Of a stretch of 20,410 nt of DNA, positions 2,038-11,377 are shown piece by piece. Below the pieces are notes generated by a model. That model saw nothing but the letters and a program-made list of their open reading frames with translations, made no database searches and had not been told where the DNA came from. Each line of letters starts with the position of its first letter. Within the stretch, counting starts at the first letter, position 1. The stretch lies in IMG/VR virus record IMGVR_UViG_3300035130_000040, positions 1 through 20,410 of that record; one strand, given 5' to 3'. The translations under genes and the position numbers were made by a program. Origin of the DNA: a virus.

Positions 2038-4278
2038 TTAACTAACGCCGATATTATACAGCAGCGAAGCGCACGTATTATCCCGATTCTTAAACGCAAT
2101 CCGAACCGTCATGGTCATCTGGTAGCTATCGTAATACGGCAGGAAGTCGATACTGCTGGTGATATTGCGCCGATAGCCGACTTTCCAGGATGGCTTATGC
2201 ACAATCAACAGTGACCCTTTGGTGTTGTTGCTGGTTGTGGAATGGACATACCCAGAGGTATTGGACAGTCCAAACTCCTGTGATGGGAATACAGGTGACC
2301 CGTCAATGGTTGGAACCATGCCGGTGTTGACCGTGCTGCCTTCCCCGTTATTCATGTACACCAACAATTCGTCAATGCCCAACAGTTTACCGTAGGTTTG
2401 CACGTCCACGAAGTACACCAGGTCATTCGGGCGCATAGCGTAAGCGTTTGCCAGCTTAAACCGAGCCGTCCGAATCTTGGACAATGTGGGTGAAGCACCA
2501 CCGGCATCCACTGTCAAGTCTGACCCGTTGACCAGGGGCAGCGCCCGCAGACCGTCAAAAGCCAGAAACTTATCGGTAGACGTAGGTGAACTACCGTAGT
2601 AGCTGATGTTCGTTGCGCCGGTCTCATCGTCGCCATTCAATAGTACGTTATCTATGGCATCTTGTACCGTCCGCATACCCTGCGCGCGAAGCTGCGGGAT
2701 AAATTGGATAATACTATCTTCCATGATTTCGGCACTGAAGCCCACCCGCAGCGCCAGTTTCTTGGCGGTCAGGGTGACTTTCCCAACAGCTAATGTGCTA
2801 TCCGGTATCGGACTGTTGCTATCCGCCAGCGTCAGTTGAGTTTCGGCAGTGGTTTCCGGCACGAGGTACACGGTAGGATCGGTGGACTCAATTGGCAGTT
2901 CATACGACGCGCTGGGCATTTCTACCATTTGGAAGGACGCAGCAATCATGTTTTCAACGCGCATCCGCTCCCACAGGTCGCTTGACCAGAGAGTGGGAAC
3001 CCAATCGGAGTCGTTGCTGGCGTTGTTGAGTTCGTTGGCTTTAATAGCCATCAACCGTTTGCCATCATCTTCCGCCAATTTCATCGCGCCCTTGATGTAC
3101 TCGTTTTGCGCCCGGTCGGTCAGTTCCCGATAAAACGCAGTACCCAACCCCGTTCCCACACCGTTTTTAATGGCGTAGGCATGACGAATCATGTGCAAAT
3201 AGCCCATATCACGCGGTGACAGGTCAGCATACTTGGTACGCATTTCAATGCGGGGATTAAAGTTTGCTTTCGCTTCCGGCTTTCCACCCGCAGGCAGTTG
3301 TCCCTTCGCAGGCGCAGCTTTCATGTGTTTCATGAGTTCCGCTGCAAACGCTTTCGCGTCTACCACCGGTGCTTGCCCGTTTCGTTTGACCGGCTGCTTT
3401 TTCTTCATTGGGTAGTCCTCTTCGTCGTCGGCCTTGATTTCCTCATCGTCCATCTCGGCTTTGGCGATGTCCTCTTCGTCTGGGGTATCCAGACCATCTT
3501 GTTTCATTTCCTCTTCAGGGTCGCCGTCGGCCATCATGCCGTCTGCCGGTTCTTCCGGCGCGGTTTCCAGTTCCTTGATGACTTCCAGGATTGGTGCGGT
3601 ATCCACACCAGCACCCTCAAGAGCAGCTATCAACGTGGCATAATCCATGTTGACATCCTCCTGTTTACTTGTTTTGTCGATAGAGTCTTGCTCACACGCT
3701 TTCGCGGTGTCCGCCGCTCCCTTGACCCCTTCAGGCGTTGCCTCTTTAGGTTCGGATTGCGTTTCTCCGTTGAGCGCGTTTGTTGCTGATTTTAAGGCCG
3801 CTACCGTCGTGCGGTGCGGTTCGGCGGGGTCAGGTGTTAAACTGCCCTCCACAATCGGCCAGCGTAAAATCTGACCGTTGGGAGTCACGTCCGCCCAATG
3901 CGGAACTGTACCTGACGACCACCCCAATAATCCTTTTAAGACTTGCTGATATACTTTTTGTGCAGCTTGCTTTACGGTCTCGGTGGCATGGTCAAGGTGC
4001 AAGTGCCCCTCTGCCCATAACCCTTTGGCATCCTTGATTATGCGGTCAATCCGCCCGACTTCCGTTCCGCCAATCTCGTCGCTGAGTTCGTGATGGTACA
4101 AAATAGGGCGGTCGGTGTAGCGACCCAATTCAAACTCGGTATGCGGGGTAAAATATTCGCCTTGCAAGTCCCGCTTGTTGGGGTTGCCCCACACCACCAG
4201 ATACCCGCCGATGCGCCCGTCGCCAAGCGCTTTGATACTCCCGGCGGTGAAATAGGTTTTTTCGGCTGTCAGTTCCAT
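2038..4278 (-). CDS. HK97-type prohead protease fused to scaffold and major capsid protein
   Basis: 746 residues with three segments. Residues about 15-165 match the HK97 prohead protease (peptidase U35) pattern: GYLVVWGN start, DRPILYHHE with H62/H63, and GWSSGT with S121/S122 as catalytic candidates. Residues about 211-345 are highly acidic, then Lys/Pro/Ala-rich, as in a scaffold or delta domain. Residues about 346-746 resemble an HK97-fold capsid, with the MRTKYADLSPRD entry, an E-loop-like stretch, NVLLNGDDETGA and a beta-rich C-terminus. In HK97 protease and capsid are separate genes; here one frame covers both. The enzyme would cleave the scaffold inside the procapsid. The ATG directly follows the preceding stop (TAAATG) with a weak ribosome site. 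An internal ATG at 3648 with a perfect AGGAGG may give a separate scaffold-capsid product. Confidence 0.9.
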   Translation of the reverse strand: MELTAEKTYFTAGSIKALGDGRIGGYLVVWGNPNKRDLQGEYFTPHTEFELGRYTDRPILYHHELSDEIGGTEVGRIDRIIKDAKGLWAEGHLHLDHATETVKQAAQKVYQQVLKGLLGWSSGTVPHWADVTPNGQILRWPIVEGSLTPDPAEPHRTTVAALKSATNALNGETQSEPKEATPEGVKGAADTAKACEQDSIDKTSKQEDVNMDYATLIAALEGAGVDTAPILEVIKELETAPEEPADGMMADGDPEEEMKQDGLDTPDEEDIAKAEMDDEEIKADDEEDYPMKKKQPVKRNGQAPVVDAKAFAAELMKHMKAAPAKGQLPAGGKPEAKANFNPRIEMRTKYADLSPRDMGYLHMIRHAYAIKNGVGTGLGTAFYRELTDRAQNEYIKGAMKLAEDDGKRLMAIKANELNNASNDSDWVPTLWSSDLWERMRVENMIAASFQMVEMPSASYELPIESTDPTVYLVPETTAETQLTLADSNSPIPDSTLAVGKVTLTAKKLALRVGFSAEIMEDSIIQFIPQLRAQGMRTVQDAIDNVLLNGDDETGATNISYYGSSPTSTDKFLAFDGLRALPLVNGSDLTVDAGGASPTLSKIRTARFKLANAYAMRPNDLVYFVDVQTYGKLLGIDELLVYMNNGEGSTVNTGMVPTIDGSPVFPSQEFGLSNTSGYVHSTTSNNTKGSLLIVHKPSWKVGYRRNITSSIDFLPYYDSYQMTMTVRIAFKNRDNTCASLLYNIGVS
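3646..3662 (-). promoter_or_regulatory. Internal ribosome-binding site and in-frame start within the protease-capsid ORF
   Basis: AGGAGG (3662-3657) sits eight bases upstream of an in-frame ATG (3648-3646, codon 211), the best Shine-Dalgarno in this operon and stronger than that of the ORF's own start. Initiation here would give a 536-residue scaffold plus capsid without the protease. The position matches the domain border: the protease ends near residue 165 and a low-complexity linker runs to 210. It recalls the nested scaffold start of lambda C/Nu3. Confidence 0.75.
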
Positions 4279-4779
4279 TTACAATTCACTTTCTAACACG
4301 GCAAACAGCGCATCATAGCCCACCTGTACAATCGTATCTTCCCCGCGTTCCATATCCACCTGAAGCGGTGTCCAGTTGCCTTGATGGTAGGGGTGTTGTT
4401 GGGTCTGCGGATCGCCTATAACATCCGGCGCATAGGTGACATTTGTCCCCACTGACACCGTAACTTCTGTTGGTGTGGTGTTTTCTACATCACTGGTAAT
4501 TGACTGACCTAAACGCCCAGACCGCCGGTAAGGGATTTCACCCCCGGCAATCATGGCAAAGACTTTCCCTTGCTGCTTTTGCGATTGGAACTTGCTTTGA
4601 AAGGTATTGCCCTGTACACCGGTGCGCGTATATTGCACCGGCAAGGGTGCGTGTGACTGGGGTGGGTATTCACTCACCTGCCCCTCTGCTGCCACGCCCA
4701 TTTTGACCCCGGCCTGACGTAACGCCTTCTCTAACGTTTCCGGTTTGAACAGATCATACAACGGATCAAAGATGCTCAT
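4279..4779 (-). CDS. HK97 gp10-like head-tail connector/tail completion protein
   Basis: 166 residues from the ATG at 4779. This start overlaps the portal stop as ATGA and has GAGG nine bases upstream; an ATG nine codons earlier lacks such support. The middle of the protein has the family signature of HK97 gp10-like proteins: a YRRSGRLGQSI stretch, a beta strand (TEVTVSVGTN) and VTYAPDVIGDPQTQQHPYHQ, where members usually read 'VGTNVPYAPYVE.G'. The C-terminus ends in a helix-like QVGYDALFAVLESEL. Such proteins act at the head-tail interface during assembly, and its place between portal and capsid genes fits that role. The family call is moderately sure because the N-terminal 60 residues are not recognisable. 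Confidence 0.7.
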   Translation of the reverse strand: MSIFDPLYDLFKPETLEKALRQAGVKMGVAAEGQVSEYPPQSHAPLPVQYTRTGVQGNTFQSKFQSQKQQGKVFAMIAGGEIPYRRSGRLGQSITSDVENTTPTEVTVSVGTNVTYAPDVIGDPQTQQHPYHQGNWTPLQVDMERGEDTIVQVGYDALFAVLESEL

Positions 4780-7154
4780 ACTTTCGGCCTCGCAAAACAC
4801 CGGCAACGTGGATGTGCCGGAGGTTTGTATAACTTACCAGTTCTGGGATGTCGCCACCCCTCACGGAAGTTTCCAACCACCCCATGCAATGGCCCGCAAA
4901 TCTCACACACCAATTGATCGCGTACCGTCTGCCAGATACCTTCCGTTACACCCGCCTGCTCCCACCGGTTAAACGCGCCTTCGGCATAGGCGCGGGTCGT
5001 TTCGGTCTGGGCGATGTTTTCAGCGCGGGCAGCATCATGGAATAGCTTTTCCAGTTCCTTTTTAAGCGCCGATAACGGTTGCCCACTGGACATCCACGCG
5101 GCAAAGGTTTTCCGTACCTGTTCACGGGTGGTGTCGTCCAATCGTTTAATCAGGTTAAACACATACGACTGGACAAAATCATAGGCTTGTTTATCCAGCA
5201 GTGACCAATCCACTTCTACTGGCGCGGCTTTATTCGGGTTGGGAATATCCCGTTGCAACGCCTCACTCCCCGCTGCCATGCCCGCCAACACCAACTTGGC
5301 TAATGTGCCGGGTTTCTCTGGTGTACCGACCCACTCATCAACCAACCCTTGCCGATTGGCACTCAGGGCGCTATCCAGTTGTTCCTCGTCGTAGTGTTCC
5401 CCAACTTGCGCCTCAATCTGGTTCCACGCTTGCGCCATGTAATCGGTTATCCAGGCGTTACCAATCGCCTCTAATAGTTGGTCGTATCGCTGCCAATACT
5501 GGTCATACTGTTCAGGTATAGCGGCTTCCGGCTCGTCAACGGGCTTTTTTTTTAGCATCCGCTGCGCCATTGTAAACACGGTGCGGATGCTGGCGTAATC
5601 CAAATCAGGCGTTAACTGCGCCCGCACATACCGTTCCACATCCTGCGGTAAGGTATACGTCTGGAATTTCTGGGCTTTGCTGGCTCCCCGATTAAGCGCT
5701 TTCTTTTCCCACGCCCTCAACTCTTTTTCGGAATTTTCCTGCGGTGCGGGTAAGGCTTTGGGTGTTTCCGGTTGGGTTAACCGGGCCGGTTCGGGGTTCG
5801 GCGTAATTCCACGCTCTAACTGAGCCGCTTCAAACGGTGGCGCAATGGTACTCCCAAAGGGCGGGTAGGTTTGCGCCGGTTGCATTTCGCCAATTTTGTC
5901 GGCGGTCACTTGCACAACACTTGTTGGGATATAAAACACATTGCCATTCTCCAATGGTTTCTGCCCGATTTCCTCCCGGTATTCATTCAGTGAAATACCG
6001 CCACTGGTCAATTTGCTATTGGCAACCTGTATCTTTTCCAGGGCGTTCTCCGTAAGCGCCATAATCGCCGTTGCATCAAACGCAACTTCATTCTGGTTGC
6101 CCTCGTCAAAATACGGCAGAATGTCCTGTGTCCAATCCCGCGCCATTTCTTCGGCTTCCGGGATAATGGTTTCTTCATACAGGGATCGCCGCTGTTCTGG
6201 GGCGCTCTGGTACTGGGCATCATCCCAAGCCCCCGCAATGGACAACGGCACACCGAAGGCGGCGCAGATTTCCCGACGTACCGACTCGCGTAATTCCACG
6301 TCGTCAATACTGGGGGCCTTCTGGATTTCCTTCACTTCCTTAATGACTTTGGGACTGATAGCCGGTTTTCCCGCATTCTTTGGTCCGCCAAAATTTTTCT
6401 TCCACAAATCAATCAGACGTTGTCCTTCGTCCTTACTCAGATCCCGTTCTGGTAGCAAGAGCAATCCCGGTCGTGCGTCATTGTCATACCAGGACTTGGT
6501 AACGCGGGTGATGTCTTTATCCAGTCCCACTTCCAATAAACACGTTTCAAATCGGGATAGACCGCGCAAGTCATCAAACGGATTGTCGGTCTTAAAGAAC
6601 ACCACCTGGTCGGGGGTTAATAACTTCAGCCGCCCGCCATAAGTTGGCGTGTACATATACTGGCTGATGTATCCCTGAGTGGTATCCACGTCCACACTCA
6701 GGTTGTTCAACCATTGGATCTCTCGGTAATATCCGTAATCATTTTTGGTCGGATAAAAAAACGTCTCGCCCCAAATCAACTTTGACCACTCGTGTTTACG
6801 AATAGGTCGGGACTTGCCCCACTGCATGGCATAGGTAAGGGGGTGGTCATCCAGCCGCTTTTTGGTCTGCTTATCCTGCACAAACCAGTCCAAACGATTT
6901 AATGAAGCCGCCCGAATTTCCACACACCGCGCCGCCCACACCGAAACAATGCTGGCATAGGCATACCCTTCCGGGGAACTTGTAATCGGTACGTTGCTAT
7001 AGGCGTTGACCAGTTCCCCAAACAGCGGTGATGAAATCGACTTAACCGCTTTTAGATTGCCCCGCGAATCGACGGTGTACGCAATCGGTAATTGCTCTGG
7101 CTTGGGGGGCGGTGTGCCGGTAATACTCGCTTTAATGCGGCTCAATACACTCAT
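4776..7154 (-). CDS. Portal protein fused to a Mu gpF/SPP1 gp7-like minor head domain
   Basis: 792 residues. Residues about 30-420 match an HK97-family portal, the dodecameric DNA gate of the head: YAYASIVSVWAARCVEIRAA, then DQVVFFKTDNPFDDLRGLSR and FGVPLSIAGAWDDAQY. A Pro-rich linker follows (about 425-480). Residues about 650-792 match the Mu gpF-like head morphogenesis domain: TRAYAEGAFNRW, then C750-x2-C753, H757, and PPAHPRCRC with H781, C784 and C786. Portal and MuF proteins are separate in Mu and SPP1, though such fusions occur in other phages. The ATG lies three bases after the large terminase stop and the 3' end overlaps the gp10-like gene by ATGA. The C-terminal Cys/His set could bind a metal, which is inference. 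Confidence 0.9.
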   Translation of the reverse strand: MSVLSRIKASITGTPPPKPEQLPIAYTVDSRGNLKAVKSISSPLFGELVNAYSNVPITSSPEGYAYASIVSVWAARCVEIRAASLNRLDWFVQDKQTKKRLDDHPLTYAMQWGKSRPIRKHEWSKLIWGETFFYPTKNDYGYYREIQWLNNLSVDVDTTQGYISQYMYTPTYGGRLKLLTPDQVVFFKTDNPFDDLRGLSRFETCLLEVGLDKDITRVTKSWYDNDARPGLLLLPERDLSKDEGQRLIDLWKKNFGGPKNAGKPAISPKVIKEVKEIQKAPSIDDVELRESVRREICAAFGVPLSIAGAWDDAQYQSAPEQRRSLYEETIIPEAEEMARDWTQDILPYFDEGNQNEVAFDATAIMALTENALEKIQVANSKLTSGGISLNEYREEIGQKPLENGNVFYIPTSVVQVTADKIGEMQPAQTYPPFGSTIAPPFEAAQLERGITPNPEPARLTQPETPKALPAPQENSEKELRAWEKKALNRGASKAQKFQTYTLPQDVERYVRAQLTPDLDYASIRTVFTMAQRMLKKKPVDEPEAAIPEQYDQYWQRYDQLLEAIGNAWITDYMAQAWNQIEAQVGEHYDEEQLDSALSANRQGLVDEWVGTPEKPGTLAKLVLAGMAAGSEALQRDIPNPNKAAPVEVDWSLLDKQAYDFVQSYVFNLIKRLDDTTREQVRKTFAAWMSSGQPLSALKKELEKLFHDAARAENIAQTETTRAYAEGAFNRWEQAGVTEGIWQTVRDQLVCEICGPLHGVVGNFREGWRHPRTGKLYKPPAHPRCRCFARPKV

Positions 7155-9610: not shown

Positions 9611-11377
9611 TTAACTCCATTCCGGGCGCGTGAACGTTGTCCCATCATCGGACAAAGAAGATGACGTGGCAATCGTTCCATCATCCGCGTCATTGCGAAG
9701 AGTTGTTGTCGTTGCTGTCTGGGTCATCTTGTTGCGGGACAACGCATACAACCAGCGCAATATCTGCGTAATAGTTGCGGCAGCATTCGGCACACTCGCC
9801 AACTCACTAAACGTGTCCACATTCAACACGTCCAACACTTCCGCATTGACCTGCGCCGCGCTGATGTTTTCCAATGCGGCAATCAAGGCTGGAATGGTTG
9901 TGCCGGTATCTTCCAATATGGCATCAATCAATAAATCCAACCGCCCGCCGTTTGTCCAATCCGTTTGCAGTTCGTTGGTATCCGCCAGGATGGTTGTCAA
10001 GGTTCCGGGCAAGGTTGTACCGGTATCGGTTAAAATGGCCGCAATATCCGCCCCATTAAATGGCGTACTATCGGCAAGAATGGCATCCCGTACATTGTTG
10101 GCGGTATGACTTGATCGGCTGCTTACGGTGGCATTCAGGTTGTCCCCAACAATCTTACCCGCCGTCCCAGCGCCATACGCGCCAGGGATTGCGGTAGACC
10201 AGGGATCGCCCGCCGCGCCCGCCGCATTCAAGGCGTTACCGGTACTGCCTGCGCCAAGATGATCGGCTAACGTTTCATCCCATACCGCGTCGGCAATCGC
10301 GCCCGCAGTCGGGTCATTCAAGGCGGCAATCGCGGCCTGGGTCGTGCCGTGTTCAGCATCCTGCGCCGTATCCAGCGCGTCCAGGTTCGTAATCGTACCG
10401 GCGGCTGTGTTGATGTCCCCGGTCACACTTGCCACACTACCCACCACATTTCCGCCAACATTGCCCGTAACGGAACCAACGGCTCCGGTGACGCTACCGA
10501 CACTACCGGATAAATTACCTGTGATATTGCCGGTAATGTTCATGGTTTGGTCGGGTAGATCAATGTTGGTCAGGTGATCGCCGTCTCCACCCGCCTCAGT
10601 TAAATGGTCGCCATCGCCCCCGGCTTCGGTGAGGTTCGTCCCATCGCCAATCCAATCGCGTAACGCTTCCTGGGCTTCGGTCTGGGCGCTATAATCGCCT
10701 GCCCCGCTGCCCCCGTTGGCGTTAATCTCGGTCAATTCGGTGGCGTTGTCCGTTTCAATAGCGGCATCGGAGCGCGCCAGAAGTTGGATGTATGCCAAGA
10801 GTTTTGCAGCAGTGGCGGCGCTGTCTGTACCCCGCATATCGGTATTGGTTGTGGTTGTCCCAACCAACGTTACATTCGCAACAGCATCATTATCCGGGTC
10901 AAAATAGTCTGCTGTCGGTATGGTTCGCGCTTCCATTTCCGCGTTGGTAGGTGGATCATAAGCAGTTAATGCCGCTGCTGCACTGGATTGTACGGTATCG
11001 GTAAAGTCCGCGCCTTCAGCTTGCGTAGCATCCGTTTGCAAATAATCGCTGCCACTCACCAGGCTGTCATACGTGTTGGCAGGCAGTACCATAAAATCCT
11101 GCCAAACCGGGAGCGCCCCGGATTCACTGACCATCACCTTCAACCGCCCCAATGTACCGGTATCGGTGGCATCCAAATCGACATCGTAATAACCTAATTC
11201 GTCATGCGTGGCGGCACTGGCCTCGTTCTTTTGCGCTATGTTGCCGCCATTTTTGGACAGACGAACATCCGCTTGAGAAATGGTCAAACCATCTTCGACG
11301 GTCACACCATCGGTGCTATTTACAAACGGTCCTAGCTTCACGGTTGCTGCTGTCGATTGCTTAAGCCAGAGTGCCAT
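9611..11377 (-). CDS. Phage tail-fibre-like repetitive protein
   Basis: 588 residues, very rich in A, T, G, D and N. Residues 1-110 form a beta-rich head domain (DVDLDATDTGTLGRLKV, then GALPVWQDFMVLPANTYDSL). Residues 249-268 hold a perfect tandem LTEAGGDGDH, and 278-320 a Val/Gly/Ser repeat that suggests an intertwined fibre. A helical and turn region follows with fibre-type segments (AVWDETLADHLGAGSTGNAL, then GDPWSTAIPGAYGAGTAGKI), then repeated DTGTT-P-x5-L units near 451-500. The C-terminal 40 residues (NKMTQTATTTTLRNDADDGT) resemble trimeric fibre termini. It probably forms a trimeric spike or fibre; receptor unknown. It overlaps the upstream lectin-like gene by TAATG. The fibre call rests on composition and recognised repeat style, not on a catalytic motif. 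Confidence 0.78.
   Translation of the reverse strand: MALWLKQSTAATVKLGPFVNSTDGVTVEDGLTISQADVRLSKNGGNIAQKNEASAATHDELGYYDVDLDATDTGTLGRLKVMVSESGALPVWQDFMVLPANTYDSLVSGSDYLQTDATQAEGADFTDTVQSSAAAALTAYDPPTNAEMEARTIPTADYFDPDNDAVANVTLVGTTTTNTDMRGTDSAATAAKLLAYIQLLARSDAAIETDNATELTEINANGGSGAGDYSAQTEAQEALRDWIGDGTNLTEAGGDGDHLTEAGGDGDHLTNIDLPDQTMNITGNITGNLSGSVGSVTGAVGSVTGNVGGNVVGSVASVTGDINTAAGTITNLDALDTAQDAEHGTTQAAIAALNDPTAGAIADAVWDETLADHLGAGSTGNALNAAGAAGDPWSTAIPGAYGAGTAGKIVGDNLNATVSSRSSHTANNVRDAILADSTPFNGADIAAILTDTGTTLPGTLTTILADTNELQTDWTNGGRLDLLIDAILEDTGTTIPALIAALENISAAQVNAEVLDVLNVDTFSELASVPNAAATITQILRWLYALSRNKMTQTATTTTLRNDADDGTIATSSSLSDDGTTFTRPEWS
10418..10546 (-). repeat. Val/Gly short-period repeat coding for fibre shaft
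   Basis: Residues 278-320 of the fibre-like protein consist of about seven imperfect copies of a six- to eight-residue unit built on T/S-G-N/S-V/I/L (for example GNITGNLSGSVGSVTG). The DNA shows matching degenerate repeats. A collagen-free triple beta-helix type shaft is the likely product. Confidence 0.7.
10574..10633 (-). repeat. Tandem 30-base repeat coding LTEAGGDGDH twice
   Basis: Two adjacent 30-base units code for identical ten-residue peptides. The DNA copies differ at several third positions, so the duplication is old or the peptide is under selection. The Gly/Asp pattern could bind calcium, which is speculative. Confidence 0.75.

Follow-up and report, generated by a model that had tools for sequence, protein, structure and literature searches.

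Candidate nested start at the protease–scaffold border, conserved among phage protease–capsid fusion genes

A fused head gene

The window, that is, the whole 20,410-nt stretch of viral DNA analysed here (IMG/VR record IMGVR_UViG_3300035130_000040), carries on its minus strand a single open reading frame (ORF) in which a head-maturation protease, a scaffold region and a major capsid protein are joined. The features of this gene are as follows.

2038–4278, minus strand: fused ORF, 746 aa, comprising head-maturation protease, scaffold region and HK97-fold major capsid protein (ORF and profile matches)
4276–4278, minus strand: full-length ATG, abutting the TAA (4279–4281) of the preceding ORF; weak Shine–Dalgarno (SD) sequence
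3814–4242, minus strand: protease domain, approximately residues 13–155 (alignment with relatives; ordered in the structural model)
3649–3813, minus strand: disordered linker, residues 156–210
3657–3662, minus strand: internal SD AGGAGG (motif scan; position conserved in relatives)
3646–3648, minus strand: internal in-frame ATG, codon 211 (sequence and ORF translation)
3618–3663, minus strand: predicted RNA hairpin, with CAGGAG (SD) paired and the AUG partly so (local fold prediction)
3112–3648, minus strand: helical, charged, putative scaffold (delta-like) region, approximately residues 211–389
2167–3051, minus strand: HK97-fold capsid core, residues 410–704 (profile and structure matches)
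2038–3648, minus strand: predicted nested product, a 536-aa scaffold–capsid chain lacking the protease, with the frame and stop of the fusion

The C-terminal half of the fusion is an HK97-fold capsid protein. The window protein matched PF05065 (27.5 bits, cut-off 24.2) and TIGR01554 (37.7 bits, cut-off 27.5), and a Foldseek search with the model recovered the T5, HK97 and GTA capsids at E values of about 1e-13 to 1e-11. The protease region yielded no protease match in Pfam or NCBIfam and a weak match to phrog_3244 (E 0.055), and its aligned relatives scored below the cut-off of TIGR01543 (L035, E 1e-8; L025, 2e-4). Alignment with relatives indicates that the approximately 160 N-terminal residues are probably an HK97-type head-maturation protease with putative catalytic residues H63 and S121, both of which are invariant in alignments of 18 and of 22 relatives; W140, S146, T148 and P151 are also invariant in the protease alignment. 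The NCBIfam family NF045541 likewise describes an HK97-type prohead protease fused to a major capsid protein; the window protein did not match this model at E <= 1, and the relative L035 matched it weakly (24.6 bits, cut-off 525).

The AlphaFold model of the fusion is of moderate quality overall (mean pLDDT 60) and shows a clear pattern, with residues 13–155 mostly ordered, residues 156–211 disordered (pLDDT <50) and helices from residue 213. Because disorder in the model ends at residue 211 and the helices start at 213, codon 211 was placed at the linker/scaffold border. From their position and helix content we infer that residues 211–389 act as the scaffold.

Profile searches identified a terminase, a portal protein and a possible neck protein upstream of the fusion. 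The portal gene (4776–7154, minus strand) likewise encodes a fusion, its C-terminal part being a Phage_Mu_F (minor head protein) domain, which brings the head-gene fusions in this phage to two. Elsewhere in the window, an ORF at 9611–11377 (minus strand) encodes a predicted structural protein of 588 aa with a repetitive Gly/Ser/Val-rich stretch (SGSVGSVTGAVGSVTGNVGGNVVGSV) and has an SD among the strongest in the window.

An internal ribosome-binding site at the domain border

At the internal site the minus strand reads ...AAACAGGAGGATGTCAACATGGATTATGCC..., and the AGGAGG is separated from the ATG by the 8-nt spacer ATGTCAAC. The original prediction, that a perfect SD with 8-nt spacing precedes an in-frame ATG at codon 211 of 746, proved correct in coordinates, motif, spacing, frame and codon number; the position of this ATG at the protease/scaffold border, also predicted, agrees with the disorder and helix boundaries of the model. 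The third element, a weak site at the ORF's own start, was borne out as well: the calculated SD duplex energy is −2.3 kcal/mol at the full-length ATG versus −10.3 kcal/mol at codon 211, one of the strongest sites when starts across the window were compared. The full-length ATG is probably served by translational coupling to the preceding ORF.

Within the window, AGGAGG followed after 4–11 nt by ATG occurs four times against 0.89 expected, a count reached in 2 of 100 shuffles. Synonymous shuffling of the ORF, which leaves the protein unchanged, preserved AGGAGG at codon 211 in 12% of trials and gave a linker site of equal or better quality somewhere in 23%; such single-ORF tests were mostly not significant individually. 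Taken alone, the window's own site is thus compatible with chance and only mildly unusual, and its significance comes from the fact that relatives carry it.

In the predicted hairpin, a feature absent from the original prediction, CAGGAG pairs with CUCUUG and part of the AUG pairs with CCA. The fold is not strongly unusual in stability (z −1.41; 14 of 200 shuffles were equally stable), and the site folds at −9.9 kcal/mol compared with −5.1 ± 2.4 kcal/mol in synonymous shuffles. Corresponding sites in the family are weakly structured (median −6.7 kcal/mol, versus −14.3 kcal/mol at other ATGs) and slightly less structured than their synonymous shuffles (p = 0.012). With both SD and AUG paired, the window is an outlier against the family trend. 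We hypothesize from the predicted fold that initiation at the internal start may need ribosomes arriving from upstream to open the hairpin.

Conservation of the internal start in fused relatives

To collect relatives, IMG/VR was searched with the protease alignment (58 loci) and, at the DNA level, for the conserved motif SLTPTPAEP, a pattern that is blind to the internal start (120 further stretches). A scan of genome contigs added two relatives, and a metagenome-assembled genome of the Anaerolineae (Chloroflexota) contains one fused relative. Searches of viral contigs gave no confirmed relatives with the fusion or the portal as single-protein queries and no relatives with the capsid-only alignment, and the collections searched held no close homologue of the window. 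Profile classification yielded 88 protease–capsid fusion ORFs, nearly all from uncultivated viruses, and many other cases in which the two proteins are encoded by separate neighbouring genes. The 88 fused ORFs rule out a sequencing or assembly artefact as the source of the fusion. One candidate protease, the 204-aa product of the gene before the capsid gene of Microcystis phage Mvi-JY20, proved unrelated; the annotated prohead protease of this phage is the gene before that.

In the first 21 fused ORFs, SD-preceded in-frame ATGs clustered 40–60 aa beyond the protease domain. Clustering at 70% identity gave a non-redundant set of 57 fused ORFs; in 48 of them an SD with a core of 4 nt or more precedes an in-frame ATG located 10–75 aa beyond the protease domain. 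Synonymous shuffles of the same 57 ORFs, which preserve protein and codon usage, gave 22.0 ± 2.9 (maximum 31), so that the observed number exceeded all 300 shuffles. With SD cores of at least 5 nt, 29 sites were observed versus 9.8 ± 2.2 (maximum 15). Strong SD-ATGs are rare elsewhere in these ORFs. Within the 10–75-aa zone 53 of 94 ATGs have an SD, versus 74 of 776 outside it.

Because a position logo of sites chosen by their SD would be circular, we turned to linkers with exactly one in-frame ATG at +20 to +65, chosen irrespective of SD. An SD was present in 29 of these 32 linkers. G at third codon positions, counted upstream of the ATG, was found in 33 of 64 cases at −13/−10, which fall in the SD, versus 9 of 96 at −22/−19/−16 and 5 of 64 at −4/−1. 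The share of third-position G is thus 9% before the SD and jumps to 52% precisely within it, whereas at other in-frame ATGs it stays at about 30% throughout. Three relatives (L094, L117 and L180) have GTG in place of ATG as the candidate start, again behind an SD.

These data bear on the idea that a charged, Glu/Lys/Gln-rich linker followed by Met mimics an SD through its coding alone. Such coding does go some way towards an SD, as shuffles already yield a site in 22 of the 57 ORFs and 12% of them keep AGGAGG in the window; yet the 48 sites observed lie above every shuffle, the excess is confined to the third codon positions of the SD, and the residues preceding the internal Met differ between relatives. 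We regard coincidence at the protein level as very improbable.

The conservation of the SD in homologous fusions that the original prediction called for is found in 48 of 57, with loss limited to a minority of divergent fusions that have no clear internal SD, such as L019, L125, L155 and L073. Less of its quantitative suggestion survived, namely little full-length and much nested product. The SD strengths in the window fit this ratio, but a 'weak upstream, strong internal' pattern was rejected as a family rule: among 46 ORFs the internal SD was the stronger in 22, and upstream SDs are as strong overall (Wilcoxon p = 0.86). SD strength is for this reason no general guide to the ratio of full-length to nested product. 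The separation of protease from scaffold–capsid by a nested start, the central part of the prediction, is supported by the 57 fused homologues, by the domain border in the model and by the capsid starts of unfused relatives described below. Together, comparison of these genes indicates that one gene probably makes protease-bearing and protease-free capsid proteins from two in-frame starts.

Unfused relatives and the origin of the site

In relatives with unfused genes, the capsid gene opens with an SD-ATG close to where the protease gene stops. In L016 this separate gene starts with MDYKELLAQ, which resembles MDYATLIAAL at the internal start of the window, and in L041 it starts with MAKNELQ, comparable to MAKNAQK at the internal start of L005. 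A quick tree of the protease domain requires 15 changes between fused and separate states, 7 of which are forced by well-supported branches; with few columns, the direction of change is unreadable. Fusion or splitting nevertheless clearly occurred repeatedly, and the simplest reading equates the internal start with the start of the capsid gene itself.

The protease is also found in other arrangements. In L004 (Salinibacter phage 5_2), whose capsid gene stands alone, a homologous protease domain occupies residues 570–710 of an 848-aa protein (3294–5840) and follows a long N-terminal region; this is the same protease in a different fusion. The protease ORF of the unfused L016 and L017 begins with a long N-terminal region, and before the protease domain, at codon 83, a strong SD (AGGAGG) with an in-frame ATG possibly marks another nested start.

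If the internal start descends from that of a separate capsid gene, it might be a relic, a ribosome-binding site left behind when the intervening stop was lost and no longer needed. The capsid start of unfused relatives lies in the same place, and since switching was repeated (at least 7 forced changes) some fusions may be recent. Against this, the SD is kept in fused ORFs whose linkers are unalignable and whose proteases share 30–50% identity, and groups that are exclusively fused, such as L153/L081/L094/L097/L148, all retain it; moreover, a relic site may still be active. A functionless relic therefore seems unlikely to us, and a start that is still in use remains the preferred reading.

Cultivated phages and known systems

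Among 14 cultivated HK97/U35-type fusions, some of them near-identical, 8 carry an SD-ATG at codons 198–223 (shuffles 4.8 ± 1.1, maximum 8), an excess that is only suggestive in these 14 sequences alone. The phages with the site are RcBaka (codon 214), RcKemmy (215), LPPA33 (213), S1, MinM1, B8b, yong2 and Pd_22F (204); of the remaining six, most show an ATG in the same place behind a G-rich stretch. In the Vibrio and Shewanella phages 1.055.O, 1.049.O, 1.083.O and 1/44 (L198, L200, L204 and L202), a standard SD is absent from the border and GGGGA precedes the ATG at codons 195–205; this stretch may represent a degraded site or an alternative signal for initiation. The Rhodobacter phage RcBaka, like the window, has an HK97-type protease fused to the capsid, and the only SD-ATG in its whole ORF is at codon 214; unlike in our reading of the window, the gene is annotated as one 'major capsid and protease fusion protein', with no nested start annotated.

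A close known parallel is lambda C/Nu3, in which protease and scaffold share one frame and a start at the border gives a protease-free scaffold form. The same scan applied to lambda gene C returned as its best site an AGGAGG-ATG at codon 309, which we take to be the revised Nu3 start. As in lambda, the window has an in-frame SD and start at the border and a stop shared by both predicted products, and this arrangement is conserved in relatives. The two differ in that the lambda capsid protein E is encoded by a separate gene, whereas the window capsid is part of both predicted products, and in protease class (S49/ClpP-like in lambda, HK97-type in the window).

Phage HK97 gp4/gp5 resembles the window in protease type, in capsid fold and in having its scaffold as the N-terminal part of the capsid protein; it keeps two separate genes, where the window has one fused gene that retains the second start inside. 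HK97-type proteases cut themselves and the scaffold, as established for HK97, and protease-free capsid chains could accordingly come from a full-length chain alone, by self-cleavage in the linker or scaffold. The invariant His63 and Ser121 fit this alternative, as do the fusions that lack a clear internal SD; it leaves the conserved SD and start codon unexplained, is compatible with nested initiation and competes solely with the need for an internal start. We consider self-cleavage as the sole source quite unlikely, and continue with two starts as the preferred explanation.

Herpesvirus UL26/UL26.5 also produces protease–scaffold and scaffold alone from one frame with a common C terminus, as predicted for the window, but it does so through a nested transcript and not a bacterial ribosome-binding site, and its capsid protein is separate. 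The capsid gene of Gifsy-2, as Effantin and colleagues are said to have reported in 2010, is tripartite, with ClpP-like protease, scaffold and capsid. The same tripartite gene is described for MD8, in a text that mentions no 'internal' start (PMC8508860). Like the window, both have an SD-ATG at the protease/scaffold border (codons 221 and 220, respectively); they differ from it in having an unrelated protease, whose domain contains further SD-ATGs (codons 185/186). Because the amino acids at the border are conserved too, these sites can be read as nested starts only tentatively.

Both ingredients were known before, the protease–capsid fusion from NF045541, MD8, Gifsy-2 and RcBaka and nested protease/scaffold starts from lambda; the window combines the lambda C/Nu3 logic with a tripartite gene. 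A search of the open literature found no paper on an internal start in a protease–capsid fusion or on its conservation.

Proposed role of the nested start

Proheads require many more capsid subunits than proteases, whereas a plain fusion would supply one protease per subunit. The anatomy of the gene, the domain border and the conservation of an SD and start codon at that border are observed here, and the explanation that we hold to be likely is that two starts on one mRNA give protease–scaffold–capsid and scaffold–capsid chains that co-assemble. Initiation at the upstream ATG, probably for the most part by ribosomes that have just finished the preceding gene, would yield the full-length chain, and the internal AGGAGG/ATG at codon 211 would yield the 536-aa chain without protease. 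Mixed assembly would then limit how many proteases, each tied to a capsid subunit, enter the prohead, where they would cut away the scaffold. In this scheme, initiation at codon 211, the product ratio, co-assembly and scaffold cleavage are the parts that we infer.

A broader version, which we put forward tentatively and with somewhat more doubt than belief, is that protease–capsid fusions of tailed phages, whether of HK97 or ClpP type, follow a general design rule, acquired repeatedly, of placing a nested start at the border; an annotated fusion would then as a rule encode two head proteins. In certain phages, that of the window among them, a hairpin might tie protease-free synthesis to translation of the full-length chain.

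Repeated switching between fused and separate states with the capsid start retained suggests a route by which fusions can arise without breaking head assembly. A conserved nested start would be a simple solution to the stoichiometry problem of the fusion, testable in cultivated phages such as RcBaka. In that case a second product would have gone unrecognized in many capsid genes annotated as fusions, with consequences for capsid annotation, proteomics and structural work.
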